Positions 1 through 51,829 of a stretch of 64,000 nucleotides of DNA are shown piece after piece (the first letter of the stretch is position 1; every line of letters starts with the position of its first letter). Below the pieces are notes generated by a model, which had not been told where the DNA came from, ran no database searches, and saw only the letters and a program-made list of their open reading frames with translations. The position numbers were made by a program, and so were the translations under genes. Source of the DNA: Prorocentrum cordatum (Eukaryota; Sar; Dinophyceae; Prorocentrales; Prorocentraceae). The stretch covers positions 31,001 to 95,000 of the forward strand of contig CAUYUJ010000369.1 in NCBI GenBank assembly GCA_963575745.1, written 5' to 3'.

Positions 1-110
1 ACCGCCACAACGGCGGGGCGACCCACGTCGAAGGACTGCCTGAACACTACGTGACCCAAGGACGATGGGTCCGAGCCCAGGGTCGCTCCCAGAAAAGGTA
101 GAGATGCACG

Positions 111-700
111 GCTGAAGGCCGTAGTAACTTGGGAAGCCCAGGGAGTAGAGGCGCAGATCTGAGCATGACGGGGCGAAAACCACCAAGTCGTCGGTCCCAG
201 AGCTGCGGGCCAGGCCGAACCTGGCAAAGTGAAAACAGCTACGGCGGGGTCAGGGGCCACTATGGCCACACGCAACACGTGATTGCAATGCGGACGGTAT
301 TGCTGGCACACACACACACTTGGGTCCAAAGGCAGGAAGGAAGTGCACGTACCAGGAGGGGCGGCAGGATGCCGCCAGGCGGGTCTGTCGTCGAAGGAGC
401 AGCTGAAGGCCGCTGTTTGATAGAGAAACCCAAGGATTATAAGCGCGTCTCGGGAGTGGACCTCGGTCGGTCCCGAAGCAGCGTAGCCGGGCACGGGACC
501 ACTCGGGCCACAGGTGAGAACCACTGCAGCGGGGCCAGGGGCCAACTAAGGTCTGCGCGCTGCGCTCCCCCGCGCTGCGATGCAGATGGTATTGCTGGTC
601 GACACACTTGGGTCCAAAGGCAGGAAGTGTGTGAACCAGGGAGGGAGGCAGCGAGGCTGCCACACGGTTGAGAGAGAACTGGAGGCAGCTGAAGGCCGAT
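111..700. repeat. ~290-bp tandem repeats in the 3' region of the giant LINE
   Basis: The anchor GCTGAAGGCCG occurs at 111, 402 and 688, giving two diverged units of about 291 and 286 bp and the start of a third. Both full units share an AGGGGCCA block, a GGTATTGCTGG block and CACTTGGGTCCAAAGGCAGG in the same order. No credible reading frame is present. Two CCCAGGG 7-mers (near 75 and 137) continue the motif found in the coding part. Most likely this is the element's 3' UTR. Nothing else is seen in 1-110 or 700-763. Confidence 0.6.
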
Positions 701-763
701 CACAGTGTGTAGTAAGGTTGAAATATCTGTCCACCTAGGTGGCGGGATGGGCGGGAAGGGAGC

Positions 764-3700
764 TCAGTCTCCCCATCGCTGCCTCTTTTTCCCACGCTCG
801 TCAGGTCTGCCTCCACCACGCTTGCCTCCCGTCTGCCAACGGTCGACGTGCCAGCCGTCGCTCCAGTCGCCCTGCCAGGTGCCCCAGGTGTCCCAGGAGC
901 TTGTCGCTCGGTCGCGCCAGCTGCTCTGCTGGTGGTTGCCCTTGCCCTTGCCGTCGGGCCGGGTGTGACGCAGGTACTCGGCCCGCACTTTGGCCCAATC
1001 GATGCGATAGTCGAACCTCGTGTCCATCAAGTAGGCGTTGTATCCGCAGCCCTTCCAGTCGTCCAAAAACTTGTTGATGGTCGCGTCCGAGTGCAGCCTC
1101 GGGTCTGATTTGGGCCCCCTGGATCCAGGGAGCCGAATGCCTTGCGTGTAGGCGGTCCACAGAGCGCAGAATACTGCACCCAACTCCGTTCGGTGCCTGG
1201 TGAGGCGTTTGGCGGGTGGCTCTCCGCGGCGCTCCAAGTCCACGGTGCCCAGCCAGACCTTGTACATGGGGCCCCCATGTGAGTCGGTCAGCAGGTTGAG
1301 TGTATGTCGCTCCGCTGAACGAGGGTGGGTAGGCCTATGTCCAGGAACCTGTGGGTTGCGTAGTGGGGGACGACGACTCCGCGCGTCGCCCCTGTCGCGG
1401 GCGACTTCGTCGTAATCTGCTCCCCTGGCTTCACTGGCATTTTGGTCGGTGCTGGCAGGGCCACCCCAGGCAGCAATCGGGTCGCGGTCAGAGCTGGGTT
1501 CCGAGCTGTCTGCCGTTGGGCTCCGCTGAGGCGCCTTGTCGCCAGGGCCGTCGTCGTCGACCTCCGTGGCAGAGCCCGAACAGGATGCAGGAGGAAGAGA
1601 CTCGTGGGGGTTTCCAAAGTCGGGTGACTCCACCTTTTCCGTAGGAGGGATCTCGTCTTCACCGCTCTCGTCCTTGGCAGCGTGGTCGGGCAGGTCCGAA
1701 TCACCCAGACGCGAGTCGTCGTCTCTCGTACCCAAGGGTTTGTCTGCGTCGGCCGCCGTAGGGGTGTTAGGTCTGTCCTCACTCATGGTCTGCACGTGCG
1801 ACTCGGCCAGGGAAGTGATGGTCGTCGAGGCCAGGGCGTCGGCGCTGAGGCTGAGTAGGAAACTCGGCAGTGTGCCCATTTCATGTCTGACAGGGCTGAG
1901 GCCACTCGCCGGGGCGAGGATCGAGGCGTGCTTCTCCCAGGACTCCTTATGCTTCTCGCCGTTGGTGAGGTGGGAGACGACCCGCGCAGCGGCCAGCCGT
2001 TTGCCTTCCCAGGGCTGGTTGAGCGGGACACAATCCTCAGGGATGCAGTCGCCGCACGCCGTCCTGAGGAACTCCGTCAGACGTCCGCCCGGCCAGTAGG
2101 CTTCGTCGCTCCTAGGCTCTGGGATGCTGTTGTCGCGGTTAGTGAGACAGAACTGTCGCCAGGTGTAGTCCAGCCCAGGGTGGAAGTCCCGGAGGTAGGT
2201 TACCAGGAGTTGCTGTACGGACACGTCTCCGCTGCCCGGTCCGCTCCTGGGGTCGTCTGGGCACAGCGTGGGGTTGTTGACATCCTTGCTGTCCAGGAGC
2301 GGGCCCTGCGGGACTGGCAGCTCTGGCAGGAGCTCCATGAGCTGTGCTAGCGACCTGGGGGCTCGCTCGGCAGCGGAGGCCGCACCACCCGTGGCGCTAG
2401 ACCCAGGGAGGTTTGCCGCTCCGGCCTTGGCGAAGCGATCTTGGGCCTTGGCGTCAGCGCCTAACCATGGGAGAGAGCTGAATATGTCCACTGGCACCTC
2501 AGCTCCTATCTGGCTGTTGAGCGTCGGGAGGACAGGGGCCTTGGCTGGGTACAGCGCTCCGAAGTCCCTATCAAGGATGTGGTCCAGGGTAGCAGGACCG
2601 ATATTCCATACGGGGACCAGGCAGCGTCGGCAGCACCAGGTGGCGTTCCAGCTGCGCTCCCACCAGGCTATGGCTCGCCTCTCGATGGGAAGCAGTCCGG
2701 CCTGCTCGGGGACCCCTACCCCCTCCGCTGGCTTCCATATGAAGCAGCCCAGGGGAGGAGCTCCTGTGTTCCAGACGAGGATCGGAGCCCCTGGGGGGCA
2801 TGTGTCGCACCGAGCGGAGTAGATTTTGCTCTGCGCAGCTTTGAGGCCGAACCGTTCGTTTCTAATCCGTAGGATGGGAATGGTGGTGTTGGCGCGCTCA
2901 GGGAACTGCATGCCGGTCGGCGCCATGATGAGATCCGACAGCGACCTCGTGTCCGCCTGGGGGCTGCATCCAAAGCCAAGTGGGAGGTGACCCAGGGAGG
3001 GGAGAGCGTCCGCCTTTTCGTCGCTTGCGGCACCCGTCTTCTGTTGCTCGTGCTCCTTGACCTTGTCGGCGATTGTTGCGCCGGTTGGTGCTGGAATGCC
3101 CTGTTCCTCCAGGTATCGGATCCAGCAGGTCTCGCAGTGCCATCCCATGTTCGCACCGTTGAGGTAGGCCTGGGGCCTGTTCTGTGCTACCATCAGGCGC
3201 GTGTCGTCGGAGATCCACGTGCCATCGGTGGAGCGTAGCTGGTGCTTACCGCAGCTGTCGCACTTGAACCTGCCATTTTTCTGCCCGGGTGTCAGCCTGT
3301 CGTCGGGAATGCGCGGAGGGTCCTGCCTGGTGCCTGGGGCGGGGGTGGACGGCAAGGGGGCGTTGAGGTCGGTGTTGGATAATGCAAATCCGCCGCCGAT
3401 GTAGGCGAGCCCGGCAAGCCGGTCGTCGTCACCCAGGGAGGCGTCGGAACCCGCAAGCGCGACGTGAAGCGCGCACACCGAGCAGCGGTGCGTACCCAGG
3501 GGAGCCAGGGAGGCGGCTGGGACGATCTTCTCGAGGACGAGCATCGGCGCCTTCCACTGAAAGTCCTGCCTGTCCATTTCACTCCAGGTCTGCGGGCAGC
3601 CGGCTGCCCGCGCCTCCGGGCGGTGGTGCGCCACCGCTACGAGCTTGGAGGTGTGGGGCAGGATTGCCTCGATGCGACCGTGGAGGTCGGCTAGGTCGTC

Positions 3701-5482
3701 TAGCGTGAGTCCCCAGGTTCGTGCCGAGTCGTGCCGGAACCCTGTGCGCTTCTTGCCAGGGACACAGAAACCCTGGATGGCTTCGATGACATCCCCGGTC
3801 TGCTCTGCGTGAGAGAAAGGCCACAGGAACACGCGTGGCTCGCGGAGCATTAGCATCATGACGACCAAGAGCGACCGGGCCTTGCAGGATTCCATGGGGA
3901 GGCCGTCGGTGTCTATAATCTCCTTACGGATCTGGTCCCGCTTAGGGTCGTCGAAAGCGCCACGGAGGATCTCCTGTAGGCCAGCCATTCCAGGGTGCTT
4001 CCTGTGCCTGCAGCAATCCTTGGTTGCTGCGCTCCACGCCTGGGGGACCTGTCGGTAGAGTCCCTTGGGGGTGCACTGGCGCCGCCCACAGAGTGTTACA
4101 CGCCTTCCTTTGACGTGCGGCACCGGTGGAAGAGAGTCGTCGTAGATTGCGTAGTTCGCGTCATGCCAGGGAGTGCCAAAGCCGAGCGTCCACACAATGG
4201 CAGCCCAGAGCATGTGGTAGACTAGATTGGGCGCGTCTAGACCCAGGGACATGTCGAACAGGAAGCCCACGTGCGACCAAGCCTTGCGGTCGAGGCTGCC
4301 AGGTTGTCGGGGCGTTTCCGCCAGCGAGAACTCGTGCGGGTGTAGTCCCGCCACCAGATAGATGAGCACGTGGAAGGCGGGCGTCGAGAGGATCTCGTTG
4401 AGACCGGCCGAGATGAGCTTACCCAGGGAGTCCCAGTCGAAGTCCTCATCCAGGGGAATGTTGTAGCGCTCGGCGAAACCGCTCGCCTGGGCGTCGCGTG
4501 CTTTCTTTTTGGCCGCATCAAGCTCGTTTCGCCCGCTCTCCCCCTTTGCATCGCAGCTCCAGGCAACAGGGGGCGGCACCCAGGTGGCGAGGGCGGGCAG
4601 CGGGTCAAAGCTCTCGTCGATGACCAGGGGCCTCCTGTGGCCAGCGGGGGCGCTGCCCCCGAATCGAGCCCAGAGGCGGGTCAAGCGCCCGTACTCAGAG
4701 AGCACACGCAGCTGGGACCAGGTGGCATTGGCGAACATGCGCCCGTCTCCCAACATCCGGGTGTTCCGCTTGGCCCTAGTGATCGCCACGTTCAGGCGTT
4801 TGGCGTCGTCGACAAAGCCCCAATTGTGACTCCCGTTGCTCCTCGTAGTCAGTACGATTACGATGTCCGCCTCACCACCCTGGCTGGAGTCGATGGTGGT
4901 GAGCTCGAGAGCCCCACTCTTCATGTGCTCGCCCGCAACCTGCACGAGTCCAGGGAAAGCAGTGCCGATGGCTGTTTGGGCGTTGCGGTCCTCCCGAAAG
5001 ACGGTTTCCCACCGGTGAACGTCCACCGTGTGCTCTTGGGGGTCGGGTCCGGGGCCGGGGGTGTCTTGTCCGTCGCGAGCAACGCTGCCTTTCCCTTTGC
5101 CTGACTTCCCCTTCTTGCCACCCTTGGAAATCCGCAGGACACCGCAGAGATGGCGGGGACCCTGCGGCCAGCCATCCATGAGGATGGCCGTCTGGAGCTG
5201 GTTGTCAACATCGATTCTGACGGTGGTGCCTTTTTCGAGCTCGGGCAGGAGTGCCCGCACGATGTCCACGGCCTGTGCTGCCTCGGGGAGGTTGGCGTAG
5301 CCAGGTTGGAGGTTAGACGTGACTTCCCAGTAGGGTGTGTCGACCAGCAGGAAACGGTGCTTGTCTCCGTTTTGCGGAGGGTCCAACTGCTCGAGGGTCG
5401 TGCGAAGGTCATCCTCGTCGGAGCCGGTGAGGGTGGCCAGCTCAGCCAGTCGTCCGGTTCCCAGGGTGTGATGTCTCTCCAT
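764..5482 (-). CDS. ORF E, C-terminal block: SF1 helicase motifs V-VI plus long zinc-bearing tail
   Basis: This is an open block of 1572 codons. Its first ~250 residues complete a Upf1-like superfamily 1 helicase: TTIDSSQGGEAD (motif V, about 4890) and GFVDDAKRLNVAITRAKR (motif VI, about 4780). Motifs I-IV are in the block just upstream in another frame, so the ATG at 5482 is probably not a true start; a -1 shift near 5460 joins the two. The remaining ~1300 residues match no family I recognise. They hold two CXXC clusters (CDSCGKH...HCETC and CDTC...CCRRC), an acidic Ser/Pro-rich stretch, and a basic Trp/Gly-rich end. The stop at 764 is the last codon of the element. Likely role: RNA or RNP remodelling during retrotransposition (inference). 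Confidence 0.75.
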   Translation of the reverse strand: MERHHTLGTGRLAELATLTGSDEDDLRTTLEQLDPPQNGDKHRFLLVDTPYWEVTSNLQPGYANLPEAAQAVDIVRALLPELEKGTTVRIDVDNQLQTAILMDGWPQGPRHLCGVLRISKGGKKGKSGKGKGSVARDGQDTPGPGPDPQEHTVDVHRWETVFREDRNAQTAIGTAFPGLVQVAGEHMKSGALELTTIDSSQGGEADIVIVLTTRSNGSHNWGFVDDAKRLNVAITRAKRNTRMLGDGRMFANATWSQLRVLSEYGRLTRLWARFGGSAPAGHRRPLVIDESFDPLPALATWVPPPVAWSCDAKGESGRNELDAAKKKARDAQASGFAERYNIPLDEDFDWDSLGKLISAGLNEILSTPAFHVLIYLVAGLHPHEFSLAETPRQPGSLDRKAWSHVGFLFDMSLGLDAPNLVYHMLWAAIVWTLGFGTPWHDANYAIYDDSLPPVPHVKGRRVTLCGRRQCTPKGLYRQVPQAWSAATKDCCRHRKHPGMAGLQEILRGAFDDPKRDQIRKEIIDTDGLPMESCKARSLLVVMMLMLREPRVFLWPFSHAEQTGDVIEAIQGFCVPGKKRTGFRHDSARTWGLTLDDLADLHGRIEAILPHTSKLVAVAHHRPEARAAGCPQTWSEMDRQDFQWKAPMLVLEKIVPAASLAPLGTHRCSVCALHVALAGSDASLGDDDRLAGLAYIGGGFALSNTDLNAPLPSTPAPGTRQDPPRIPDDRLTPGQKNGRFKCDSCGKHQLRSTDGTWISDDTRLMVAQNRPQAYLNGANMGWHCETCWIRYLEEQGIPAPTGATIADKVKEHEQQKTGAASDEKADALPSLGHLPLGFGCSPQADTRSLSDLIMAPTGMQFPERANTTIPILRIRNERFGLKAAQSKIYSARCDTCPPGAPILVWNTGAPPLGCFIWKPAEGVGVPEQAGLLPIERRAIAWWERSWNATWCCRRCLVPVWNIGPATLDHILDRDFGALYPAKAPVLPTLNSQIGAEVPVDIFSSLPWLGADAKAQDRFAKAGAANLPGSSATGGAASAAERAPRSLAQLMELLPELPVPQGPLLDSKDVNNPTLCPDDPRSGPGSGDVSVQQLLVTYLRDFHPGLDYTWRQFCLTNRDNSIPEPRSDEAYWPGGRLTEFLRTACGDCIPEDCVPLNQPWEGKRLAAARVVSHLTNGEKHKESWEKHASILAPASGLSPVRHEMGTLPSFLLSLSADALASTTITSLAESHVQTMSEDRPNTPTAADADKPLGTRDDDSRLGDSDLPDHAAKDESGEDEIPPTEKVESPDFGNPHESLPPASCSGSATEVDDDGPGDKAPQRSPTADSSEPSSDRDPIAAWGGPASTDQNASEARGADYDEVARDRGDARSRRPPLRNPQVPGHRPTHPRSAERHTLNLLTDSHGGPMYKVWLGTVDLERRGEPPAKRLTRHRTELGAVFCALWTAYTQGIRLPGSRGPKSDPRLHSDATINKFLDDWKGCGYNAYLMDTRFDYRIDWAKVRAEYLRHTRPDGKGKGNHQQSSWRDRATSSWDTWGTWQGDWSDGWHVDRWQTGGKRGGGRPDERGKKRQRWGD

Positions 5483-6975
5483 GGGATGCCTTCAACGATG
5501 GGCCTGTCCCTGAGCGGGTTCATGATGCCAGACGTCATGCCCTTGCCGTAGTAGGCTGCGTTCGGAAAGGCGAGAAGCTGCGGATGCATGCGGTAGCAGA
5601 TCGAGAGGTGGACCACAGCCGAGTCTTGGCCGCGGAGTGCGTGAAACATCATGTCAAATATGCTAACACAGAGTCCCAGGTCGTTCGCAAGCTTCGAGAG
5701 AACCGTAGGGGGCAACTGATTCGGATCGCCCACCAGGACCAGGGCTCCGCCGCTGTTGATCAGGTTTACCATAGACATGAGCGCGTGAAGCTCCGTGGCC
5801 TGCCCAGCCTCGTCGATTACCAGGAGGACGATGTGGGGACTGTCTTTCTGTCCGAGGGCCTCGGCCGCCTCGTGTGTGGACATGATTACCCTGGCGTCTC
5901 CTAGCAGGCTCGCCTTGTAGGGCTTGAAGTCCTGGCTCTTGTCCCCGTCCTGGAACGGGAACTCCCCGTGGGCATTCTTGTAGTGGCCCTCAGGTGTCAG
6001 GTCGACGAGTGCCTCGTTGACACGCCCCTTCCTTGCCAGGCGCACGAACTTCCCAGGGAACCCCGTGTCGGGATCGAGGCGACACTGCTGATGTGCTTCG
6101 GCCATCGCCAGGGCTGGTTGGTCTACCGCTGTGTTCGAGCCGGCTGCCAACGCAACTGCTTGCCCCGGGCGTAGGCAGCATCGCCACATCTCCAGACCAG
6201 CTACAGAAAAGGTGGTCTTGCCTGTCCCAGGGGGCCAGTGCAACAGTACGGCGTGGTGATGTAAGGTGGCCTGAAGGGCCCTGATCGCGTCGCTGTTTGG
6301 CTTGTGTTTGTCCACCCTGTCGCGGAAGGTATCCAGGCTGGGAGTGGGGCGCACCCTCTGGAAGACAGAACCTGTCGCGTCCGAGATCTCGTCATCGGAG
6401 AAAGCCTTCAAACCCAGGGGAAGCGGGGGTGCCTGTTGTAGAAGGCCGCATCGGACAGCCTGAGTGTGGTCGGCGTCGGGAACGTCGCAGCCCAGGGTGA
6501 CGGCAGCCCTGGCCCTCAGGTTCAAGCCCACTGCGCTGGTGCGCCTCAGGTCGTTGGCCGCAAGTCGGTCGGCACGTGGGGCGTGCAAGAAGGCCAAGAG
6601 GAACGTCAGGGGAGACAGCTGGCGGGCGAACAGATCCGCGGCGTTCTGTCGGAGGTGGTAGATCCGGTCGAGAGCCCAACACTGGCGCCAGAACTGGATG
6701 TCGGAGGGGGCCTCGTCTACTCGATACCAGGGAGCGTCTTCGTTTGGGGGACGCTTCGCCTTGGTCTCGTCTTCGTGGAAAGGTCCCCACTTTCCACTGT
6801 TGTACAGCACTATGCACCTGTCGGAGGGGTACCTGGTGGACGGGTTAAGACCGAGCACTTGGGCGTCTCTTGGGTGGGTGGCACCGCCCAGGGAGGGGGG
6901 CCACCAGACCGTGACGTCAGCAATCTTGTCGACTGTGGGGCCCGTGACAGAAATGTACAGTGCCTTCCTCGTCTC
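5460..6975 (-). CDS. ORF E, central block: Upf1-like SF1 helicase motifs I-IV
   Basis: The frame is open from 7242 to 4921, but only about 6975-5460 looks like real protein. It holds Walker A WPPGTGKTT (about 6225), SNTAVDQ (Ia), VIDEAGQATE (motif II, about 5815), GDPNQLPP (motif III, about 5720) and ICYRMHPQL (motif IV, about 5590), a good match to Upf1/SMUBP2-type helicases. The DEAG box and GDPNQLPP suggest an NTPase-competent core. It joins the upstream block by a +1 shift near 6960 and the downstream block by a -1 shift near 5460. No start codon is needed here; it is the middle of one broken ORF. Confidence 0.8.
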
Positions 6976-8185
6976 CCTCCTGGGTCCTGGATGCCACTTT
7001 GTACTTAGAGGGCCACTCCAGCAGGTAGAGTTCCTTGCCCTCTGGAAATTCCAGCGCATTGCGTAGCCGGAAGGTGTCGAGGTCGCCCAGGTCCGAGTTA
7101 GCGTCGATCCTACTGACGCGGGCGCCGAGCGCGCAGTTACCTTTCCTGGCCAGGTCTTCGCGTGTGGAGTCTTTTCTGTTGTCCACCGTCTCGACCGAGG
7201 CCTGGCTTTCCACCCAGGCGATCCTCCGAAGTGTCTGCCCACGATCCTGAAGAGAGTAAGGCCACTGTGAGGGGAGTCGAACGGCCTCGGGCAGGTCCCC
7301 TAGCGCCGCCTTGGGGTGGACCCTGGGAAGCGGAGAGTCCAGGGGCACAGAGTAGAGACTGACTACGTCGGCGGCCGCCTGCAGTGCCAACGAATCATCC
7401 AGCTGCTGCTCCGACGGACTTGCTAGTGATGCATCTACTTCCTTGGACAGCATCACCCTTCGCTGCTGGTTGGGCTGGTCCCAGGTGGGCGGAGGGTGGG
7501 GCGGCGGGGGCGGAGGTAAAGGTCCATCCGAGGCGTCTGTGGGTTGCCCAGGCGCAGCAGGCGGTGGTCCGATGGTCGAGTTTGCTAGCGCTCTGGCCTC
7601 GCCACCGAGGTCGGACTGTCTGAGGCCCGTCCGTGTAGCCTCACGTGTGTCCATCAGGTGCAACCTCACTTGCTCTGGGTCGGACCTGGTACCTCCAGGG
7701 CAGTTGTACGTTGGCTCGTCGTCCCAGAGAGGGTAGGTGGTGGGCACGTGCAGCGCGTCTTCTGGGATCACGAGACCAGGGAGTGAGCGCACACCGTCTT
7801 GGGATACCAGGGGTTGGACGGGCCTCCAGCCTGGCCAGGGCCTTCGCTCAATATACACACGGTGACTTGAGTCCCAGGAAGATCCAGTGCACCTGATCCA
7901 CAAATTCCCAGGGGTGACAAAGGTGTTTGGGTCGGGCCACCCGTCTCCGTAGCGCGCTCCCGACATCTCGTAGTGCTTGTCGCTTAGGATGTGCTGCGTG
8001 TCGTCCACGGGCTCCTGGCAGATCTCGCACCAGTGGCGCCACCCGCCGTTGAAGAAGACCCAACGCATCCAGGGACAGAACCGGGCAAAGAAGACGCGTG
8101 TGCCCAAACGGAATGGCGGCCCGTCCTCACTGTGCGGCAGACAGGAGGGCCAACGACGGGTGGGGCCTTGGTTGTTCTTAGGCAT
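6917..8185 (-). CDS. ORF E, N-terminal block: zinc finger protein
   Basis: The start is ATG at 8183-8185 in a good eukaryotic context (GGGACCATGCC), 83 bp after the pol stop. Near residue 55 it has CEICQEPVDDTQHILSDKHY, a CX2CX8HX5H finger resembling U1/matrin-type fingers. A proline-rich run (PPPPPPPHPPP) and an ordinary globular stretch follow. The frame ends at 6917, but similarity of composition and the helicase context argue that it passes by a +1 shift near 6960 into the helicase core. No function is recognised beyond zinc binding; it may be the nucleic-acid-binding arm of the helicase. Confidence 0.7.
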   Translation of the reverse strand: MPKNNQGPTRRWPSCLPHSEDGPPFRLGTRVFFARFCPWMRWVFFNGGWRHWCEICQEPVDDTQHILSDKHYEMSGARYGDGWPDPNTFVTPGNLWIRCTGSSWDSSHRVYIERRPWPGWRPVQPLVSQDGVRSLPGLVIPEDALHVPTTYPLWDDEPTYNCPGGTRSDPEQVRLHLMDTREATRTGLRQSDLGGEARALANSTIGPPPAAPGQPTDASDGPLPPPPPPHPPPTWDQPNQQRRVMLSKEVDASLASPSEQQLDDSLALQAAADVVSLYSVPLDSPLPRVHPKAALGDLPEAVRLPSQWPYSLQDRGQTLRRIAWVESQASVETVDNRKDSTREDLARKGNCALGARVSRIDANSDLGDLDTFRLRNALEFPEGKELYLLEWPSKYKVASRTQEGDEEGTVHFCHGPHSRQDC

Positions 8186-9240: not shown

Positions 9241-9540
9241 ACAGCTGACAGGGGTCAAGCATAGGGACCCAGACTGCGGTTTCGTCTGCCGGGGCGACGG
9301 GAGGCTGCCCTTCGTGCAGGTCATCGTCAGCTTCGTCGTCTTCCTGGAGGTCGGAGTCGGGAACAGCGATACCCTGGACGATGAGCCTGGCGGCTTCGTC
9401 GGCGCCAATGGGAGTGCAGTCCAAGTTCACACAGTACCTGAAGGAGATCTGGTGTAGTACGCGGCAAACTAGCCTCTGGCGTTGTCCCCTAGTGCACATC
9501 GCCGTGGCTAGGTCCCAGGGACGGTCCCGGCCTCTAGTTT
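9230..9540 (-). CDS. pol, RT-to-RNase H linker block
   Basis: The RT frame stops at 9534 right after a run of seven A (sense strand, plus positions 9539-9545). Slipping one base there enters a frame that stays open to 9107 and reads as acidic, protein-like sequence (SDLQEDDEADDDLHEG, then PCQLC). A second +1 shift between about 9250 and 9110 enters the RNase H frame. The block has no start codon of its own. It is either a decayed segment or the product of homopolymer miscounts. Confidence 0.5.
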
Positions 9541-12276: not shown

Positions 12277-12279
12277 CTA
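12277..12279 (-). other. In-frame TAG between endonuclease and RT
   Basis: The endonuclease frame reaches TAG here, but the same frame stays open and protein-like on both sides (before: RPVGTLAA; after: LAEYEWDGNDLTPQQAALW). This is either a single nonsense mutation in a dead copy or a readthrough codon. No obvious readthrough signal is visible downstream. Confidence 0.7.
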
Positions 12280-15643: not shown

Positions 15644-15645
15644 TA
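15641..15645 (-). promoter_or_regulatory. TAATG stop-start overlap between ORF C and pol
   Basis: On the sense strand ORF C ends TAA and pol begins ATG, sharing one A. The same pentanucleotide drives termination-reinitiation between ORF1 and ORF2 of the silkworm LINE SART1 (established knowledge). This makes it a credible translational coupling site here (inference). Confidence 0.65.
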
Positions 15646-18600: not shown

Positions 18601-18765
18601 CATAGGATCCCTGCTCGGCGTCGCAGGGAAGATCCTGACTGTCTGGGCACCGATCACTATGCAGCTGGTGCCTACAAAGGCCGCTGCCATGGCGTCTGCC
18701 GCCGCCAGGCGTATGCGGACTTGCGTCATGTACCTAATAGTCAGAGACCTCAGGGAACCAGGCAT
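15643..18765 (-). CDS. ORF C, 1040-codon protein of unknown function
   Basis: This is an intact frame from ATG 18763-18765 to TAA at 15643-15645. The start lies inside the end of ORF B (32-bp overlap). The first ~300 residues look globular (for example CIVIGAQTVRIFPATPSR, GEYLLAAVAAGGAVEL). A middle domain follows (RYNWDVFAAIWILQLANPGNL), then a long Gly/Pro/Thr/Asn-rich, probably disordered section, and an Arg-rich end. No catalytic motif, zinc cluster or membrane segment is seen. Its place before pol is where LINEs usually encode the RNA-binding ORF1 protein, so an RNA-packaging role is possible, but this is inference from position only. Confidence 0.75.
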   Translation of the reverse strand: MPGSLRSLTIRYMTQVRIRLAAADAMAAAFVGTSCIVIGAQTVRIFPATPSRDPMHRAAAVSRQQQEHVDALASTSVRQAPRRAIQPQILEITTMDRHGAQLGEVRLRNMRPDAWLPGHSALRLYSAAVGSANAQILTRLWPLPDGPNGTSHPANTRVAPPVITDDWLRDNARAMSRSAPNTVPNEFRGEGLRDYETVLQPGEYLLAAVAAGGAVELTASGEAGFLFTSVPTWVTILFPADADIRAAARGADRPQPRLKLKLAAGSIHVARLDSAPTATPSPASVGLRVNAPSQRPLPRRTTASLNPLPGPARPTHFPELAEVLVSTCRPSPGDLVRADEDAVGIARGMLCRFVVVVPEQAVHDVARGVQRRIALEIRRHLEGRPVQRYNWDVFAAIWILQLANPGNLDRDHVWQLIRELGIREEVTRQLPFTQWLAPGPDATYSAHQPWLEIPGSRGADVDAATAHPIPENVTSALDALINRLSNLHWEERQRHDPGRVTLGRRGGSQAARTTDAGDRPVDPPGMNERRSRSRANPAMDVAGTQASVERPSATPGPGSTAPPTGLGMTTAPTVQTGTGPNVGSNDSPATNASGTQPQTLVPAPDEGAAPPSLASSPGGREVDNGEGREDKTRQGPPRMTPVNPATPSGGAAQTRAPVDEARRSPGSTDNPAPTDTPAAPAGVNGMGTAGSLENHTNAGTPRSEQTSPTGARANPEQPAAGNGGAATPASARDRQCTPAAARAANNGGEGSLTTAPPRASMDPAPAQSRRPPPGTVQSCSSDPLGRGDAPRSGPELPPCMEADWRRIGCGSMKLWRARSGKHRCAPQEWNRVLSAIAWAAAVPQLDKTVRDLHEDLGLPMRIPDAFSAYWSTHPPPGTRNPMGRIIHTRVAAVTADAACAQLRQLADSPAARSDSVSAPEAPFQGLTPAMLRTVLRAGAGAPFTDDRDQVLSETEEASARNLRRSGNAARRASTPRRARAPAETVGSTAETAVARRGRTRSAAGPRLPGASAQPRSAAADRAHRSPSRRAPRGMAEAHVG
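18734..18765 (-). promoter_or_regulatory. 32-bp overlap of ORF B end and ORF C start
   Basis: ORF B stops with TAG at 18734-18736, while ORF C starts with ATG at 18763-18765, upstream of that stop. Such an overlap would require reinitiation after backward scanning, frameshifting or leaky scanning if a single mRNA is used. Confidence 0.55.
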
Positions 18766-20779
18766 ACACAGTGGAGACTTGCTCGACCGTGTCAGGTCCG
18801 GTGGTGGCCTCTACGGCTTGCATGACGTCAGCCGGCCATGTTTGTCCCATGTCTGCGAGGTTCCACCGCAGGTGGAAGCCGTCCTCGGGGTCGGAGAGGC
18901 GCACAAAGGAGGGTCCACCGTCCCAGCGTCCTTCCAGGAGGATGCGGCGTGGCCCTAGTGCTGGTGAGGAGGATCCGTCTCCAAATATACGCGGGAGCTC
19001 GTCACGGAGGTGCCTCAGGACAGGGGCGGCGATCCTTTCTGGAGTAGCAAGAAGGAGTAGTCCTGTCCCACAGATGCCCACTCTGTGACCCATGGCCCCG
19101 GCTGTCGCAGAAGCAATGGAGTGGGCTAAGCATACTGCTCTGGGGGGGACTGGGATGTGCACTGAGTCACTCGTCTCGTGGGTTCTCCAGATGCACGCAG
19201 TCGGGTGGGCCAGCGTGGTAATTTGATCTGCCGGATGTAAGTTGTCCAGGGGGGCACGTAGGCCGTCCTCTCCAGTCATGGGCCTTGCTGCACGACAGCG
19301 AAGTACATTGTGGAAGAGCATCTCGAGTCCTTGGTGCCTTAGAAGTTCGCCCCTGGGGAGCTGCACTCTCGTGGTGACCCACTCGGCCGTGATCGTACCG
19401 TTGCTGGATTGTCTTAGCTCTTCCTTCCACCGCATGATCTGCGCGACGACGCCGTCGTTGCCGCTCTCGGGGGGTAAGATGTGTAGAGCGTCGGAGGTGC
19501 CCCAGGATCTCCCTCCCCAGAATACGACTATTGACGGGGGCAGAATTGTGCGAAGTGCCCTGCCTGATATGTCGAATTGTGCCGCAAATAGCTGTTGCAT
19601 TGGCGGGCTGGACTTGCCGGTTCGGTAGGGGTAGCCGATCGGGACGAGGTGGGTGATCTTGCTGGTCGCTCTATACCCCCACTGCGCGTTTGCCAGGGTC
19701 GCGAGCTCGATGGGGCCCGGTCCTCCAGGGGATGGCACTCCCTCGGTGGCCAGGGCGAGGACACAGCACAGACATCCCGCTGCAGAAGCTGCCGCCAGGG
19801 CAGCGTCCATCTGTGCAGCTTGCGCATCTACCATGGGGATCGTTGGGACGGCGCTCCCAGGGGGCTGGTCTCTGCGCTCCGTGACCAAGGCTTTGATCTG
19901 CTCCCAAGCATCGGGGCCTGCGAGGGCAAAAGTGACCCCGGTCTCATCGGCTACTCGATCGCCAACGTACGCAGTTCTGGAGACTACCAGATCGGCTGCA
20001 ATGTCCCGGACCGCCGTGGTTAGTAGGCTCACAGGGAACCGCATAGGTCCTCTCCTCCTGGGTTCGTCCTCTGGTGGATTCCACCCGAGAAGTAGGGCCC
20101 ATCTTCCAAATGTGATCCTCGGAGCTTGTCGTATCCTGTCTGCCCTGCTGGTGGGACCGGGGGGTCGTAATGGCAGCGGTGATCCAGGGCTTTGCGAGCT
20201 GGTCTGCGTGTCATCAGGGTCCGGGCCGTCTCCACCGTCAGGCGGGGTTCCGTCCACGTCCATCGGGGCTTGTTCCATCTCCAGAGAAGCCCTCCTCCCG
20301 CTCACATGCTCGTGGATCCTGCGCATGTCCGCCTGCGTGACATATGTGTGGGGCCGTCGAATCGATAGCGTCTGCGCTCTGAGGCAGTCCAGGTCTGGAG
20401 CTAGATGCCTGACGACCTCGGCTAGCTTGTGTAGACCCAGGAAAGGCTGCAGCGGGGCTAGAGCACCGTCCCGTAGTTGCAGCAGGTCTGGTGGTACCGC
20501 CACGGCAGCGGCGTCAGCGTCGCAGACTCGCCCTGGCAGCCTTACGGTGATGCTACCCCTGTCGTTTGAGCGGCAGTTAGGGCAGTTTACTGGGAAGCAT
20601 CTTCCGTAGGTGTGGGCCTGCGTCGGCTGGCTCACCCTCCACTGGCTCAGACACTCGGCGTGGAACAGATGACCGCATGGCATCAGGACTTCTGCAGTGC
20701 CCAGGATGTTCCCGCTGCAGATCACGCATAGGGGAGTTCCTACGTCAAGGTCCCAAGGGGGGACCTCTACAGCGTCCAT
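18734..20779 (-). CDS. ORF B, RING-H2 finger protein
   Basis: This is an intact 681-codon frame starting at ATG 20777-20779. A RING-H2 finger sits right at the N-terminus (residues ~18-75): CVIC, then PCGHLFHAEC, then CPNC, the C3H2C3 spacing of E3 ubiquitin ligases. The remaining ~600 residues match no family I know; they include a proline-rich stretch and globular segments (for example RAVCLAHSIASATAGAMG). The start overlaps the ORF A stop by 13 bp and the end overlaps ORF C by 32 bp. A ubiquitin-ligase or SUMO-ligase activity acting on host or element proteins is plausible but unproven. Confidence 0.8.
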   Translation of the reverse strand: MDAVEVPPWDLDVGTPLCVICSGNILGTAEVLMPCGHLFHAECLSQWRVSQPTQAHTYGRCFPVNCPNCRSNDRGSITVRLPGRVCDADAAAVAVPPDLLQLRDGALAPLQPFLGLHKLAEVVRHLAPDLDCLRAQTLSIRRPHTYVTQADMRRIHEHVSGRRASLEMEQAPMDVDGTPPDGGDGPDPDDTQTSSQSPGSPLPLRPPGPTSRADRIRQAPRITFGRWALLLGWNPPEDEPRRRGPMRFPVSLLTTAVRDIAADLVVSRTAYVGDRVADETGVTFALAGPDAWEQIKALVTERRDQPPGSAVPTIPMVDAQAAQMDAALAAASAAGCLCCVLALATEGVPSPGGPGPIELATLANAQWGYRATSKITHLVPIGYPYRTGKSSPPMQQLFAAQFDISGRALRTILPPSIVVFWGGRSWGTSDALHILPPESGNDGVVAQIMRWKEELRQSSNGTITAEWVTTRVQLPRGELLRHQGLEMLFHNVLRCRAARPMTGEDGLRAPLDNLHPADQITTLAHPTACIWRTHETSDSVHIPVPPRAVCLAHSIASATAGAMGHRVGICGTGLLLLATPERIAAPVLRHLRDELPRIFGDGSSSPALGPRRILLEGRWDGGPSFVRLSDPEDGFHLRWNLADMGQTWPADVMQAVEATTGPDTVEQVSTVYAWFPEVSDY
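20767..20779 (-). promoter_or_regulatory. 13-bp overlap of ORF A stop and ORF B start
   Basis: On the sense strand ATGGACGCTGTAG contains both the ORF B start (ATG) and the ORF A stop (TAG) in another frame. With the other two overlaps it suggests that all cistrons are read from one long mRNA. Confidence 0.55.
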
Positions 20780-22260
20780 ATTCTCTGGGGAAGTCTGGCA
20801 TTGTCTCCGGGGGGGCGGCCAATCCGGGCAAGGCCGTCTCCCAGACTCTCGATGAGAGCTCTGGCGGAGACACTAGCGTCAAGATACGTCAGGCTGGCCG
20901 CCTCGCCGAGGTGACAAATGAGGGCCTGGATCTGCAGGTTACTGAGCTCGGAGTATGGCGCCAGATTGGCTCCTGGCACCTCCCTGCTGAGACTGGTAAC
21001 CACGTCCTCCGGCGTGTGCATCTCGGCTCTCGTCATCCAACGGTAGAGTACGTCGTAAGGCCGGGAGTCCACCGCTCGCACCATCAGCACTGGCCTCAGG
21101 AGGGGAAAGTAGTGTGGCGCCAGGCAGAGCCACAGGGCTTTGGAGATCCAGGAGCCTGGTTGCCCATTAGCTCCGTGGTCTAACAGCATGCTCTGAGCCA
21201 GGCACTGTGCCTGGTCGCCATTGACGGAAGTCCTTCCTTCAGGGGCGGGCATGGTCCCCCTGCCTGCACCCTCCTCGTCTCGCTGTCTGGCGTCTAGCGT
21301 GCGGATGAGTCTGTCCAGGTGCTCTTCTCTCGTGCTGCCTGGTGGTAATCTGCCCTGGGGGATAGCCACGTTCGCTCGGTTGAGCAACTGTCGTATGTCC
21401 GCGTGCCAGGGGGCGGTTGTGCTCGCGGCTTCCGCAGTCGCGGCCTCTGCTCCAGGGCGCGCCCTTTCTTCGTGCGTGGGCCAGTGATTCCTTGGATTCG
21501 TTCTCTGCTCGGTCCTGGCCTGCTCCGCTCGCAACCTCGCTCCCGCTTCTACTGCCTGCCGGTCCCCTGACAGGATGGCCGTCTGAAGGGAGCCACTCGC
21601 GTCTAGTTGCTCCATCATCCATTCCTGCAGCCGCGGCGCAATGTAGCTGCCCACTTCGGGTGCCTCGAGCGTAGATCCAGTGGCCCTGGAGGATGTGTCT
21701 GCCTCTGACGCAAGGACTACCTGGGCGCCCCTATATGAGAGGACGCCTCGTGCTCTCCACCATGTGGCTGCCTGGTTGATGATGTTAGTATTGATATTGG
21801 TGGTCCTAAACGACTGCTCGAGCACGATACGGCCCCTGTCTGCGGCGGTGCCCCATACGAAGGGGGCCAGGATTCTACTCCACCGCATGCCTGGGGTAAC
21901 GGAGTTACTGGCCACCATCCTCCTGATTCGTTGCACCTCGTCGACGAAGGCTTCTCGCTGGGAACGCCCCGCGGGGGATAGGTCCTGCACGGAGTCTGGG
22001 GGGCGTCTGTGGAGGGCTGTTTCTCTGCCTCCATCTCCGCCAATGGGGCCTCTTCCGTCGCGCCAGGGGTTGTCCACGCCCATGGGGGAGTGTCCACCAC
22101 TGGGTCGTTCCGCGTGCTCGAGGTCGTGGACACCACTGTCTGACTCTAGGCGTCGGATGACGGCGTCTGTAACGAGGTTTCCCATGGGGGGGTCCTTGCC
22201 CCATTTGGGCATGTATTGGGCGCCAGTCGGTGCGTGCTGCTGCCTGTAGCGCACCTCTCA
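20767..22260 (-). CDS. ORF A, C-terminal block
   Basis: About 490 codons end at TAG 20767-20769. The most upstream possible start in frame is GTG (22254), and the preceding frame is protein-like up to that point, so this is a continuation of ORF A through a +1 shift near 22250. It contains Arg/Glu-rich helical stretches and a globular end (ALWLCLAPHYFPLLRPVLMVRAV). No known domain was recognised. Confidence 0.6.
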
Positions 22261-22600
22261 CAACCTCGGCTGCCTGGGCGTGTGGACTGTCTCTGTTGTG
22301 CCACCAGCGTCTGCTGAGGACCATGCCGTTTCGTGAGTCGCTCATGGCTCGGTCCAGGTGGTCCTCGCCGATGGTGGCGCTTAGCCAGCGGAGATCACCC
22401 AGGTGTGCCACGGTGTTCGGTCCTATCGCGATCATCGCGGTTGGCCTACTCGTTGAGGGACCCCATCCAGTTCGGTGGCGGGTACGCGTTCGGGTCCTCG
22501 TGATAGAGCTGCGGGGGGACCAGCCGTCCAGTCGCCCCTCTGGGCAAGTCCTAAGTACGCGGCGTATTTTCTGGCAGACATTAAGGGCCCAGGAGTCTGG
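22250..22600 (-). CDS. ORF A, short block between two shifts
   Basis: Between the stop of the upstream frame (22581) and the C-terminal block, a third frame reads as ordinary protein (LNVCQKIRRVLRTCPEG, TAMIAIGPNTVAHLGDLRW, SDSRNGMVLSRRWW). Two +1 shifts are needed to connect it. It has no start codon of its own. Confidence 0.5.
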
Positions 22601-23770
22601 CGCGGAGCAGAGTAAGGCTAGGGAGACCGCTGCTGTGCGCAGTTGCCAAGTGTCTCCAGGCTCCCAGGAGTTCGCCCACGAGCCAAGTCGGGGTGAAGTC
22701 GGAGGGGCCAGGTTGAGCTGGGGAGTAAAGGTGCTCTGCGACTGGGGCGTACCGCATGCCCGCCCTGACAAGCTGCAACAGCAAGATGCTATCCAGAAGG
22801 TCGAGCACGTGCCTGTTGAGTGGCTGTTCCGAATCGGCGTCTGGGTGACCCTGATGGAGGTCGCCCGATTGCCGCTCGCCCTGGTTATAGCTCCATGGGT
22901 TGGCCAACCTGTGGCAAGTGATGCAGCGTCGGCCCGTGGGGTCTCGAAGCATCCACGAACCGCAGAAGTTGCATCGTTGAGTCGGGCAGAAGAAGTCCGG
23001 CAGCAGCAGGCGGTGCGCTGTGGTGGACCAGGGCCATGCGTTGTCATTACTGTCGCCACCTTGGATCGGTACCCCAGGAATGCCCGTTGAGCTGGCGGTT
23101 ACTCCTGTAAGGGCTGGCTCTACCCATGGTACTGGGCCTCTACCTGCTTGTCGTCTCGAGTGTACGTCGTCCCCAACCCGTTCAAGATTGCCCCTCCTGA
23201 TGGCCCACTGTCTGATGTCCCCATGGTCCGGAAAGTGAACTACGTTCTGTCTGCGCTCGTGGATTAGGACTCTATGCGCATACTCCCCGGTTTCGTCGTC
23301 CATGGGGTCCTGGGTCCCGTCTGGTCGGTTAGGGCCGCTACTGTGCGGGGGCACTGCGTCACCGGGAGACCTGGTGGGCAAGAGCATCCTGTCTGTGTCG
23401 AATCCACTCGGGAGTTCCATACCTATGTCGCAGTAGTGCGCTGCAGCGACCATGGCAACATATTCTAGACGCGCTAGTTGCCTTTCCGCTACGGAGGGAT
23501 CATCCGCGTCCAATCTCTCCCTCCTTATACTGGGGTCATGGGTGGTACTCGCGAAGCGGAAGGCGAGCACCTGTATCGGGTCTGGCTGCGCACCCCCGAG
23601 GCGCCCTTCGCGATCTCCTCCCGTGACGGACCAGACTAGCCAGGAGAGGTCCAAGATGGCGAGGGTCGGGGCCGAGGTGGCTCGTTGCGAACCGAGCCCA
23701 GGGAGGAGGGCTTCTGCTGGAGCCGCACGCAGGGGGCTGCCTACTCGCATGCCTGGGGACCAGGGCGGTG
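22581..23770 (-). CDS. ORF A, zinc-ribbon block
   Basis: This frame carries CPTQRCNFCGSWMLRD followed by RRCITCHRL, a four-cysteine zinc ribbon near 22950, within globular sequence (LARLEYVAMVAAAHYCDIGM; HVLDLLDSILLLQLVRAGM). Its open frame extends to 23948 but has only a GTG there. Protein-like sequence begins after a -1 shift near 23770. It ends at TAG 22581. The zinc ribbon could bind nucleic acid; no family was recognised. Confidence 0.6.
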
Positions 23771-24500
23771 CCCCCTCCACGCGCGGTGCGTGAGGAGCTC
23801 CAGGTCCCTGGTTTCGCTCGGTGTCCTCGGTGCCCCTCGATCGGGGATTTCGCGCCAGGGACCGTCGATACGCACTAGGTGGCGGCGGAGGGCGTTCATG
23901 GTGCCTCCCCTGCCAGTGACCCGAGCGTCCGCGACGCGCGGCCCACACATGGGTCCGTCAGCCTCCCGACTGGCTGCCCAGTCAGCGTTCGTATGCCCAG
24001 TGGCGTCCATCCATCGAGCGTGGAGGTCGGTTGCGTACTGCCCTCTGTCCCTATGGGCTTGGCTGGGGTCCTCCTCGGCTTCCGAGGGGGCGCCCTGGTT
24101 TTCCCTCCGCAGTTCCTCCTCCAGGGCAAGGTCGGGAGAGGGGTAGGAGAGCGGGTCGGGCGAGACGGGCGCTCTGGGAGCCGCGCACCTCAACACGAAT
24201 GGGGAGCCGTTGGCCGTCCTGATGAGGGGCCCCCGGTCCCGTCCTTGAGGCGGGCCTTCGCAGCCGTGGCCAACGCCGCACAGGGGGCCGTCTGGATGCT
24301 CAAGCCCAGGGGATGGGTCGGGATGGGAGTGGATGGGAGGGAAGCGGGTGGGCGAGGGAAGGGAGACGCAAGGCGATCCCGCGACGACGATCGGAGGTCC
24401 GATGTGATCGATCCGATCGACCAGGGAACCTGTCCCGTCGGCGGGGTCAGCGAAGACCCCGCTGGCATCGGAAACGTGGAGCCGCCCCATGGACAACTCC
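23741..24500 (-). CDS. ORF A, second block
   Basis: Protein-like sequence (GRLHVSDASGVFADPADG, SLVDRIDHIGPPIVVAGSP, an acidic LALEEELRRENQGAPSEAEE helix) in a frame that opens at 24514 with TTG only, so a -1 shift from the N-terminal block is required. It ends at 23741. The phrase VVAGSPCVSLPSPTRF recalls the Pro-Cys loop of methyltransferases, but no supporting motifs are near. The function is unknown. Confidence 0.5.
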
Positions 24501-26595
24501 GTCGTCGTTCCCAAGGAAGGTCGGTCACGGTCGGTCGTCTCAGCAGCGGGGCGTGCCTCTCTGAGCCCCTATTGCCGGGCCCACCTGTCTCTTGCTCGCT
24601 TCTTCCTGGCTGAACGCCAGTCTCGTCGATGAGGTTAGCGGTGTGGAGGCCGGGCGCTGCTCCTGCGGCGGTGTCCATGTCTCCAGGGAGGGGGGCGGCG
24701 GAGTCAGGGCGGGAGCCGATTGATCTGCTTGTACTGCTGGCTGCGCCTGCCGCGCGGTCTTCGACGCGCCTGCTCTGGGATGGCCCCGTTGCGGAGCCAG
24801 CCCCATCTGCGCCTACGTCAGCGGGGTCGGTCGATCGCCCGCAGCTGGCGTGGGGGCCCACCTGATGGGGGAGGCCCTGAGCGGATACACCAGGAATACC
24901 AGGAGGGTCGATGTCGTCTCCACTCGTGGTCACAGCCTCTGCGGCGCTCTCGGTGCCCATTGGCGCTGTCTCTGGATCTCGAGCTGAAGGCTCGTCACTT
25001 CTGAGGTTACTCGATACGCCTTGGAGCCTCGAGCTGAAGGCTCGCTCCGCATGAGAATCCCGAGCTGAAGGCTCGTCCCATCCGCAGCTGTCCAACTGGG
25101 GGGCGGGTGGCTGACGAGAGTCCTCGGGGTTACAGGAGTGACCAGGGAGTTGACTGGTCGCAGCATCGCCGCCGGCGCCAAACAGTCCGCTCGAGGCGCC
25201 CCAAGCTGCAGACCCCCTCAAATCTGCTGTCTCGCTGGGAGCTCCACGGGCTGAAGGCCCGTTTTCTGCGTGTGCCGTACTGCCGCCTCCAGGAAGGGCG
25301 GCAGGCGCGCGGCGACGCCCGTCGCCACTCGTGGTCACATCTTCTGCGGCGCTCCCGACGTCCATCGGTGCCGTCTCTGGTTCTCGAGCTGAAGGCTCGT
25401 CACCTCTGAGATTGCTCGATGCGCCTTGGAGCCTCGAGCTGAAAGCTCGTTCCGTGTGGGAGTCCCGAGCTGAAGGTTCGCCCCGTCTGAGGCTGCCTGA
25501 CCGGGGGGCGGGTGGCGGACGAGAGTCCTCGGGATTACGGAAGTGACCAGAGAGTAGACTGGTCGCCGCGTCGCCGTCGGCGCCCACCAGTCCGCTTGAG
25601 GAGTCCCTGGCAGCAGACCCCCTCAAATCTGCTGTCTCGCAGGGCGCCCCAAGGGCTGAAGGCCCATCTTCTGTGTGAACCACTCTGCTGCATCCAAGGA
25701 GGGCGGCGGGCGCATGGCGACAGCCGTCTAGCCGTCTGCTTACGTCCGCGGGGGGAGTCGGCTGCACGGCTAGGACGCAGGCCTCCACGGCTACAGGGCT
25801 GGCCCCTTCGCAGCTGAAGGCTGCTTCTCTCGGCATTGAAGCGCCCAAGGGGGGGCGCTCGGCGGAATGGAGGCGCAAGCCCCTGGGATGCGAATCGGGT
25901 ACAAGGGCAGGCGTCTGCCCGTCTCCCCTCCTGTCGCAACCGCGGTCACCCTCTTGAGTGGCCCCAACCCTAGTCCCCCCGCCCTCGTCGGTGAGGCCCC
26001 TGGACCGGTCGTCGGGGGCGTCTCTCTGGCGGTCGCCCCTTCGCGACCAGAGCGGGCCTGGGTCCGTCGGGGGACTCACTTGTTCTGGAGTGGGGCCCTC
26101 GCCCCCCGTGATCCTGGCATCGCCGCGGGCGATCCAGCTCTGCCCTGCACCGCCAGGAGAGAAGGAAATTGGGCGCCCAGCCATGGGCAGAGGAAGGGTA
26201 GGGGTGAGGGAGGGAGATAAGTTCGGCGGGAGGGCGTCATTCCTGTCAATGTCAAACCCAGGGAAGCGACTGAAGGTCGCTATATCAGTGTGTCTCGCGG
26301 CGTTAAACGTGTCTCCCCATCTTCCCGTCTGGCTGAAGGCCATCGGTTCTCGTGCGCATGCAACGTCAACGGGAGCGATCACGGGGTCCGCGGACGCGTT
26401 CGGACCGCCCGTACTCGGGGGGTCCCAGGGGGCGAGGGGCGACGGCTGCCCTGGCGGGATGGTGTCCTGTGATCCAGGGGGAGGATGTCTTGAGTCTGCC
26501 AGTCCGTGGGCCCCCTGGCCGTCGACTGGGCTTGCATCGTCACCCGCGGAGTTCCCAGGAAACCTAGGACCGTCGTCGATCGGCCTCCAATCCAT
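24480..26595 (-). CDS. ORF A, N-terminal proline-rich region
   Basis: I choose ATG 26593-26595 as the start: its context is ACCATGG, an ideal eukaryotic start, and it is the first ATG after the leader relics. The frame is open further up to 26844, but only a TTG occurs there, outside the element. The sequence is low-complexity, Pro/Ser/Gly/Ala/Asp-rich and probably disordered. Residues encoded by ~25730-24921 form two copies of a 135-residue repeat with recurring EPSARD and SSRLQG phrases. A disordered, RNP-forming N-terminal arm is possible. No known domain was recognised. Confidence 0.6.
24921..25730 (-). repeat. Two-copy 405-bp in-frame tandem duplication in ORF A
   Basis: The phrase CACTCGTGGTCACA occurs at 24921 and 25326, an exact 405-bp (135-codon) step, and surrounding blocks (GACTCCCGAGGA-like, GAGCTGAAGGCTCG) repeat in order. 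The step is a multiple of three, so the frame is kept. The short phrase GAGCTGAAGGCTCG (coding EPSAR on the sense strand) is itself repeated several times within each unit. Confidence 0.7.
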
Positions 26596-26762
26596 GGTAA
26601 ACCCGACCTGGGCCAAGCTGCTGCGAGGAGCCGTAGGCGCGGAACCCAGGGAGTCTGATATGGCCGGAGCGCGGCCCGGGGGGAAGCGCGCGGCCCGCAA
26701 ACTCCTAGGGGATGCCCCCTTGAGCTGGGAGACCCGGCCGAGGAGCCAGGGCCCAGAGACGG

Positions 26763-26810
26763 CTTGAGCCAGGGTTTGAGCCAGAGGGGCTTGAGCCAGA
26801 GGCTGCGGTC
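26763..26810 (-). other. Three tandem spliced-leader-like relics at the element 5' end
   Basis: On the minus strand 26810-26790 reads G + ACCGCAGCCTCTGGCTCAAG, which aligns to the dinoflagellate spliced leader (ending CGTAGCCATTTTGGCTCAAG) with two substitutions and a 2-nt gap. It is followed directly by CCCCTCTGGCTCAAA (26789-26775) and CCCTGGCTCAAG (26774-26763). Tandem truncated leaders are the known hallmark of mRNAs trans-spliced, reverse transcribed, inserted and trans-spliced again. They set the 5' boundary of the retrotransposed cDNA. Confidence 0.75.
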
Positions 26811-51150: not shown

Positions 51151-51156
51151 CCCAAC

Positions 51157-51813: not shown

Positions 51814-51829
51814 CGCTGGCCCTCTGGAT

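Follow-up and report, generated by a model that had tools for sequence, protein, structure and literature searches.

The window analysed here, 64,000 nucleotides of Prorocentrum cordatum DNA (contig C369, with window position 1 at contig position 31,001), very probably holds a defective copy of one giant long interspersed nuclear element (LINE) of the APE type, 27.7 kb long and with three open reading frames (ORFs), that was copied from leader-tagged RNA. A typical LINE has one or two ORFs and is just a few kb long. Including its leaders, the copy measures 27,705 bp on the minus strand, from contig position 57,809 to 30,105; in window terms it starts at 26,809 and extends 896 bases past the low end. 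An earlier note on this DNA had read five ORFs in 26 kb of the window as one element; its low end had to be moved outward. Many copies of the unit exist, with the same layout and with target duplications at their flanks, and its parts are under purifying selection. Between 26.8 and 0.8 kb, the minus strand has frames with RING, APE, reverse transcriptase (RT), RNase H and SF1 helicase, and the coding frame changes often. The earlier note had listed RING, APE, RT (YVDD), RNase H and helicase signatures in this order and on this strand, which we can confirm, and had called those of APE, RT and RNase H complete, which we cannot.

We searched the 4.128-Gb assembly (21,875 contigs) for parts of the element. 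The window RT matched at least 65 genomic places including its own, and the other 64 are 81–93% identical. Counted in the same way, with the window included, RING is found in at least 63 places, helicase in at least 58 and the DNA methyltransferase (DNMT) part in at least 89 (66 rows are 65 places for RT, 65 are 58 for helicase and 90 are 89 for DNMT). Overlaps between these marker lists are lower bounds because the lists keep only the best-scored candidates. On the same strand, in the right order and within 45 kb on one contig, we found 78 marker pairs (six are the window's own), and 68 of them fall within 2.5 kb of the spacing expected from the window; three pairs had the wrong order or strand. 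For the first 20 RT places without a listed helicase, we read 1.1 kb at the position where the helicase was expected, and 17 encode it. This sample omitted C19757, already recognised as a full-length copy, as well as C18545, which has the same scores as C15294 and is likely its duplicate.

Whole-locus comparison with blastn showed how far the collinearity goes. C15322 matches end to end from window position 26774 to coordinate -949 at 91–92% identity; the last 54 bases of this match are outside the element, where duplication and leader are present at both loci. C19757 is likewise collinear end to end, from 26771 to -908 at 71–87% identity, and both copies have the same domains in the same order as the window. 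C16291 is collinear from 26771 to 1133 at 92–93% identity, its 3' end not being reached, and C20678 matches in pieces at 71–85% identity, with its 5' end outside the fetched stretch and 5 kb of N, which its 2,677-aa frame spans. C18576 is a 5'-truncated copy starting at 13035.

We give virtually no chance to the window being a chance pile-up of separate mobile elements, in which a LINE happens to neighbour a helicase gene and RING genes. Elements are indeed found inserted in tandem at this locus, where another leader-tagged unit stands directly after the duplication at contig position 30,092, but a pile-up does not fit the collinear end-to-end copies, their sharp common ends, the 17 of 20 helicases at predicted places and the selection on the parts. 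The earlier note had also claimed a single element, to be given up if RT copies never carried the other ORFs; the helicase result, the marker pairs and the full collinear copies went the other way and bear the claim out.

The ends of the element tell us how it was inserted. All 40 scored matches to its first 376 bases (of 253 candidates, the window among them) start within 4 nt of each other, at 26775–26771. The 5' end itself, at 26771..26809, consists of three degenerate relict dinoflagellate spliced leaders in tandem, as seen by comparison with DinoSL, which a passage of PMC6050394 gives as DCCGUAGCCAUUUUGGCUCAAG. Copies carry (T)CCGTAGCC..TGGCTCAAG at this joint, which is DinoSL, frequently shortened internally. 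By eye and allowing small mismatches, we counted a relict leader at 23 of 24 5' junctions; the exception is C19955, where the 5' half of the leader is absent. Since relict leaders stand at the 5' ends of the copies, the RNA that was copied was a trans-spliced mRNA, from the leader to the short A-run. Tandem degenerate leaders are attributed, in the part of PMC3229502 that deals with them, to repeated rounds of trans-splicing and RNA-based re-insertion.

At the other end, the element closes with CGCCTGCGGCTGTAA and a short A-rich run, followed by (G)TATCCCCACCAG. The 5' target site duplication, GTATCCCCACCAG at 26810..26822, is inside a conserved upstream target motif (26810 to ~26838), and the identical 13 bases come directly after the 3' A-run at contig positions 30,104–30,092. 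Of nine copies read at both ends, seven (C369, C15322, C19757, C18576, C14100, C8025, C13378) have matched duplications of about 12–13 bp, some with one base different; C19199, C19144 and C13799 are not among the nine because their 3' ends are outside the stretch fetched. The duplications reproduce local variants: CGCCAG in C15322, GATGTATCCCC in C18576, TAACCCC in C14100 and (GTGC)n in C8025. With APE and RT in one frame, target duplications and a 5'-truncated copy, the unit has the hallmarks of a LINE, and we saw no long terminal repeat (LTR) at the joints that were read.

The same joints speak to whether this is a large segmental duplication or a host gene cluster, spread without its own retrotransposition and with the RT as a passenger. 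Three copies (C10447, C13221, C11470) have a flank in common and must be duplicates or haplotypes, but the upstream flanks of the other copies look unrelated, and variant-matched duplications, a 5'-truncated copy, leader tags and a 3' A-run are marks of RNA-based insertion. We consider such a duplication very improbable.

A LINE with these ends appears to have a preferred target. In most copies AATTCTAGACGCTTCGCGTATCCCCACCAG is upstream of the leader, and the sequence before AATTCTAGACGCTTCGCGTATCCCCACCAG looks unrelated. It is present in 18 of 20 newly read flanks (degenerate in C20399, C2727 and C14778); for two of the 18 (C17433, C13378), the flank is another copy's tail, as part of a head-to-tail array. 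Three of the 20 flanks are the single duplicated locus just mentioned, which we counted as one, and the 5' flank of C18494 is not in the set. The motif is missing at C8025 and C19955, and since C8025 inserted in (GTGC)n and not in the motif, the preference is not absolute. Scanning 303,024 bases for the target motif gave four element joints and two empty sites followed by CCCATCCA..AACGATG, against 0.5 hits per strand in a shuffled control that likewise allowed 6 mismatches; a seventh hit (L028, 6 mismatches) we treated as chance. CCCATCCAGAAACGATG also comes after the duplication in C14100 and C13378, with near variants in C19757 and C18576. One form of the motif belongs to a very high-copy repeat longer than 1.3 kb (L027:3670-3800 and relatives; 1,380 candidates, the best 40 scored being 97–100% identical), some copies of which form inverted pairs 5.6–18 kb apart, and another form is in unrelated DNA (L002). 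The window and three target loci had no Rfam match at the gathering cut-off.

The earlier note had read five consecutive polycistronic ORFs. The window's minus strand has many more overlapping frames than five, and the copies point to three ORFs, with RING and DNMT together in a giant ORF1. ORF1 territory (13695..26595, ~4,300 codons) is frameshifted in the window copy and was delimited by frame continuity and by the ratio of nonsynonymous to synonymous substitution rates (Ka/Ks). Its start is a candidate: the ATG at 26595 with its exact context was found only in the window among six sequences searched. Within ORF1, the pieces that we call C and RING are in one frame in 4/4 copies, as are RING and E. 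We had considered re-initiation at the short ATG/stop overlaps between the window's ORFs C and RING, and RING and E, and dropped it, as four copies have one frame there.

ORF2 changes frame about three times in the window and has an in-frame stop at 12277..12279, a defect of this copy, as P0008, C15322, C18576 and C19757 are open there. Around the RT, stop-free frames reach 1,814 aa in C18960 and 1,802 aa in C17736. ORF3 territory (764..8185, ~2,470 codons) starts at an ATG at 8185 (MPKNNQ) that is conserved in 5/6 sequences searched; its frame is stop-free over 2,502 aa in two copies, C13378 and C17285, possibly duplicates of one locus, whereas in the window the helicase ORF is split at ~6.97 kb and ~5.46 kb. 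Protein searches, each with 8,000 candidates scored, gave six helicase, three RT and three DNMT relatives in public data, and some of these hold the parts in single frames: APE with RT in P0008, RT with RNase H in P0007 and an unbroken helicase in P0001. Public viral contigs (RT and helicase queries) and genome contigs (RT query) gave no relative. Because relatives and other copies read through in one frame, the frame splits belong to the window copy. Its frameshifts, its in-frame stop and the loss of the DNMT motif-VI glutamate mark the window copy as dead, and it therefore cannot perform the chromatin modification or the other activities that the earlier note had proposed for it. Frameshifts seen in single copies may be decay or assembly errors.

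ORF2 is in the -1 frame relative to ORF1 in 5/5 sequences. At 13695..13703, CTC-CCC-TAG holds the ORF1 stop and, by comparison of contexts, a proposed -1 shift site. The context CGCTCCCCTAGACTCGCC is identical in the four sequences where it was found, ten of its bases being fixed by the search pattern itself; C20678 was unmatched and C18576 does not have the region. ORF2 opens just four codons upstream in two of four sequences, and in all four its first AUG is codon 115, past the APE GCWN/S motif at codon 99. The simplest reading of this arrangement would be a -1 shift on CCC-TAG, in which the P-site proline codon re-pairs on CCC one base back. ORF2 might instead have its own trans-spliced mRNA and start at a codon other than AUG, or draw on an exon that escaped detection. 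Leader addition is general for dinoflagellate mRNAs according to a passage of PMC6050394, and a leader might be added at an internal AG. We think this reading fairly unlikely, given the tight -1 overlap in 5/5 and the lack of an AUG ahead of the APE motif in 4/4.

The domains can be placed as follows. In ORF2, the APE endonuclease part (12280..13704; Ka/Ks 0.11–0.28) matches Pfam Exo_endo_phos_2 at 3.8e-6 and 27.2 bits, marginally below the cut-off of 27.4. RT (YVDD) and a C-terminal Cys/His-rich region follow at 9537..12276 (RVT_1, 1.7e-7), with a frameshift at ~11.5 kb, and then RNase H at 8272..9426 (Pfam RVT_3, 1.7e-5) with its active-site motifs. ORF3 begins with a C2H2-like zinc finger (7940..8035, read directly), whose Cys/His pattern is retained in 4/5 copies, C15322 being without the first Cys. 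The SF1 Upf1/Sen1-like helicase core is at 4754..6240 (Pfam AAA_11 3.5e-23, AAA_12 2.1e-17). Its nearest solved relatives are SEN1 (9e-17) and UPF1 (3e-15), and its family-model match is the IGHMBP2 family. Upf1-like motifs I, II, III and VI are present, with changes in single copies (C15322 in motif I, C19757 in motif II, C18576 in motif VI), and a Lys/Gly-rich insert between the motifs is also found in P0001.

In ORF1, a RING-H2 zinc finger at 20552..20731 (Pfam zf-RING_2, E 2.1e-8) keeps its zinc ligands in 4/4 copies that cover it, and its profile matches the synoviolin RING (9.3e-5). Segment E (15646..18735) is conserved at a Ka/Ks of 0.22–0.36 and had no match in Pfam or NCBIfam. The N-terminal region has a 405-bp tandem duplication (24915..25728), with more copies of the unit in C19757. 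A divergent DNMT-like domain of the C5 methyltransferase type is at 13908..15038, as judged by profile match. The DNMT ORF alone had no match in Pfam; a profile that includes the three relatives matches M.HhaI (2.6e-5) and DRM2 (7.6e-4). Two relatives, P0011 and P0012, have SLFDG, PC, ENA and PRRR motifs, and the third, P0010, is without the first motif and has ENV and PRVR. The motif IV Cys is present in the window, C15322 and C16291. In motif VI, two copies have ESP and one EGP, and the window has GSP, where the glutamate has become G. The DNMT signature reported by the earlier note thus holds at the level of profile matches, without Pfam support and with this glutamate lost in the window.

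These domains are under purifying selection. Pairwise Ka/Ks against the window is 0.12–0.19 for RT, 0.09–0.34 for DNMT, 0.12–0.33 for RING, 0.15–0.35 for helicase and 0.25–0.37 for the C-terminal part of ORF3; the upstream RT part of C16291 gave 0.49, where its frame is broken. These pairs share ancestry and are therefore not independent tests. As a frame control, we compared seven segments with C15322, C19757 and C18576 (18 segment-copy comparisons), and the same aligned bases gave 1.07 to 3.28 out of frame versus 0.11–0.32 in frame. Every domain tested shows constraint, which the off-frame controls do not, and this puts the signatures beyond chance; DNMT, RING and helicase are conserved together in one unit. 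It could still be argued that this is one LINE whose accessory domains are decaying captures with no role in transposition, as catalytic motifs are changed in the window copy and several others. We find this quite improbable, because Ka/Ks of RING, DNMT and helicase is near or somewhat above that of RT while off-frame values exceed 1, and DNMT and helicase relatives are found elsewhere in public data.

Several observations weigh against a single element with three intact ORFs and working accessory domains. Aligning the copies, as the earlier note had advised, gave ends and target duplications, but no copy that we read has all three ORFs intact. ORF1 continuity is incomplete (pieces B and C in 2/4 copies, E and DNMT in 1/3, namely C16291), and the longest stop-free ORF1 frame listed is 2,417 aa, so that the 4,300 codons are pieced together from frame continuity. 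Selection is weaker in the ORF1 N-terminal region, at 0.42–0.68 for piece A and up to 0.67 for piece B2. The element's ESP/EGP in DNMT motif VI differs from ENA/ENV in the outside relatives, and C19757 has Ser in place of the motif-IV cysteine. Three of the 20 RT copies are without helicase at the predicted place; by eye, C7486 apparently has the element's own 3' UTR there, and the remaining two have other DNA. C17689 and C19955 have no matched duplication, and that of C8025, within the simple repeat (GTGC)n, is a weak case. Finally, the functions that we give to DNMT, RING and helicase are inferred.

With these points in mind, we propose the following for an intact three-ORF LINE. Ribosomes slipping into the -1 frame at CCC-TAG would make ORF2, at a low level, as an ORF1-ORF2 product. 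ORF2 would nick the preferred sequence and copy the RNA by target-primed reverse transcription, the known route of LINE insertion with duplication. The helicase may rid this very long RNA of bound proteins and of structure, enabling copying of 28 kb; its role has the clearest logic because 27.7 kb can be inserted in full length only if the copying complex is highly processive. How a LINE copies such a long RNA is the question that this unit raises, and the conserved helicase is a testable answer. DNMT might mark the RNA, the cDNA or the new copy, and the RING part might recruit the transfer of ubiquitin onto factors of the host or onto the particle of the element itself.

Directly beyond the element (L009), a second leader-tagged unit of ~6.7 kb, head to tail with it, runs from contig position 30,091 to ~23,430. 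It ends in CAAAAA and GTATCCCCACCAG and has a 1,792-aa open frame with ~119-aa tandem repeats, and its C-terminal domain is 33% identical to the ORF3 C-terminus; it is perhaps a non-autonomous partner. From ~23,416 downward, a third unit has a relict leader, a related 5' UTR (83%) and an ORF1 piece B 44% identical to the window's, which suggests a related giant LINE family. In L014 (C15322, local 30.7–38 kb), there is a leader-tagged unit right behind the element with sequences homologous to ORF1 pieces B and C and to parts of ORF3 (30–41%), and no RT match between them.

It is possible, and we offer it only tentatively, that the life cycle of the element is built on trans-splicing: CCCCACCAG looks like a candidate trans-splice acceptor, and by inserting just behind the acceptor-like TATCCCCACCAG the element would have the host add a fresh leader. 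If this is true, head-to-tail arrays would be one transcript, cut into leader-tagged units, and each duplication in an array would restore target and acceptor. The array units would include smaller partners that keep only the ORF3 C-terminal domain, and end-to-end copying of leader-tagged RNA would also be a source of dinoflagellate retrogenes.

As for the rest of the window, the element's 3' UTR, with a diverged 288-bp repeat, occupies 1..763 and continues 896 bases past the window (L009). Inverted repeats of ~1.1 kb at 28917–30032 and 53716–54860, 78% identical, enclose 24 kb and may mark where a large DNA element or a virus-like insertion ends on either side. Within this stretch, a 970-aa minus-strand ORF (48981–51893) has a Tpt1/KptA RNA 2'-phosphotransferase domain (E 2.7e-10).

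That a selfish element keeps both a DNMT and a RING finger under selection suggests that it interacts directly with the methylation and ubiquitin systems of its host, whose lineage has unusual chromatin. Such large elements are also relevant to how dinoflagellate genomes grow and to gene models. The earlier note had thought the joint set of functions undescribed. We found no description of helicase-bearing, RING-bearing, giant or leader-tagged LINEs in dinoflagellates in the open-access literature, which is weak evidence; the size, the RING and helicase, the leader-tagged ends and the target were not found in print, but the DNMT-LINE core is known. Its precedent, going by passages of de Mendoza et al. 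2018 (PMC5890265), is SymbioLINE-Dnmt of Symbiodinium. There, as here, a DNMT ORF is just upstream of an endonuclease-RT-RNase H ORF, and both have target duplications, no long poly-A and a dinoflagellate host. In contrast, the main text of that paper never uses the words "helicase" or "RING", its first results section and other passages do not mention leader tags or a preferred target, and the present element has a giant ORF1, an ORF3 and a length of 27.7 kb. The same passages state that the SymbioLINE-Dnmt that was tested gave no de novo DNA methylation in yeast.

Other known systems share single features. Insect TRAS/Jockey LINEs also have an SF1 helicase, but according to the relevant part of PMC6338049 it is of plus-strand RNA virus origin, whereas the helicase here is Upf1/Sen1/IGHMBP2-like and has its own ORF. 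Terminons, Burro and Ogre are oversized retroelements with extra ORFs, and Burro1 has a RING-related motif, but these are Penelope-like or LTR elements; the passages of the giant-transposon review that describe them (PMC6431247) include no giant APE-type LINE. Dinoflagellate retrogenes, in the pertinent passages of PMC6050394, PMC12014239 and PMC3229502, resemble the element in having tandem degenerate leaders at the 5' joint, a sign of repeated RNA-based copying; there the tag is on a host gene, whereas here it is on an RT-bearing element with a target duplication. The retrotransposon behind these retrogenes is called unknown in a passage of PMC6050394 that leans to LTR elements, and leader tags on an RT-bearing element would favour LINEs as their makers.

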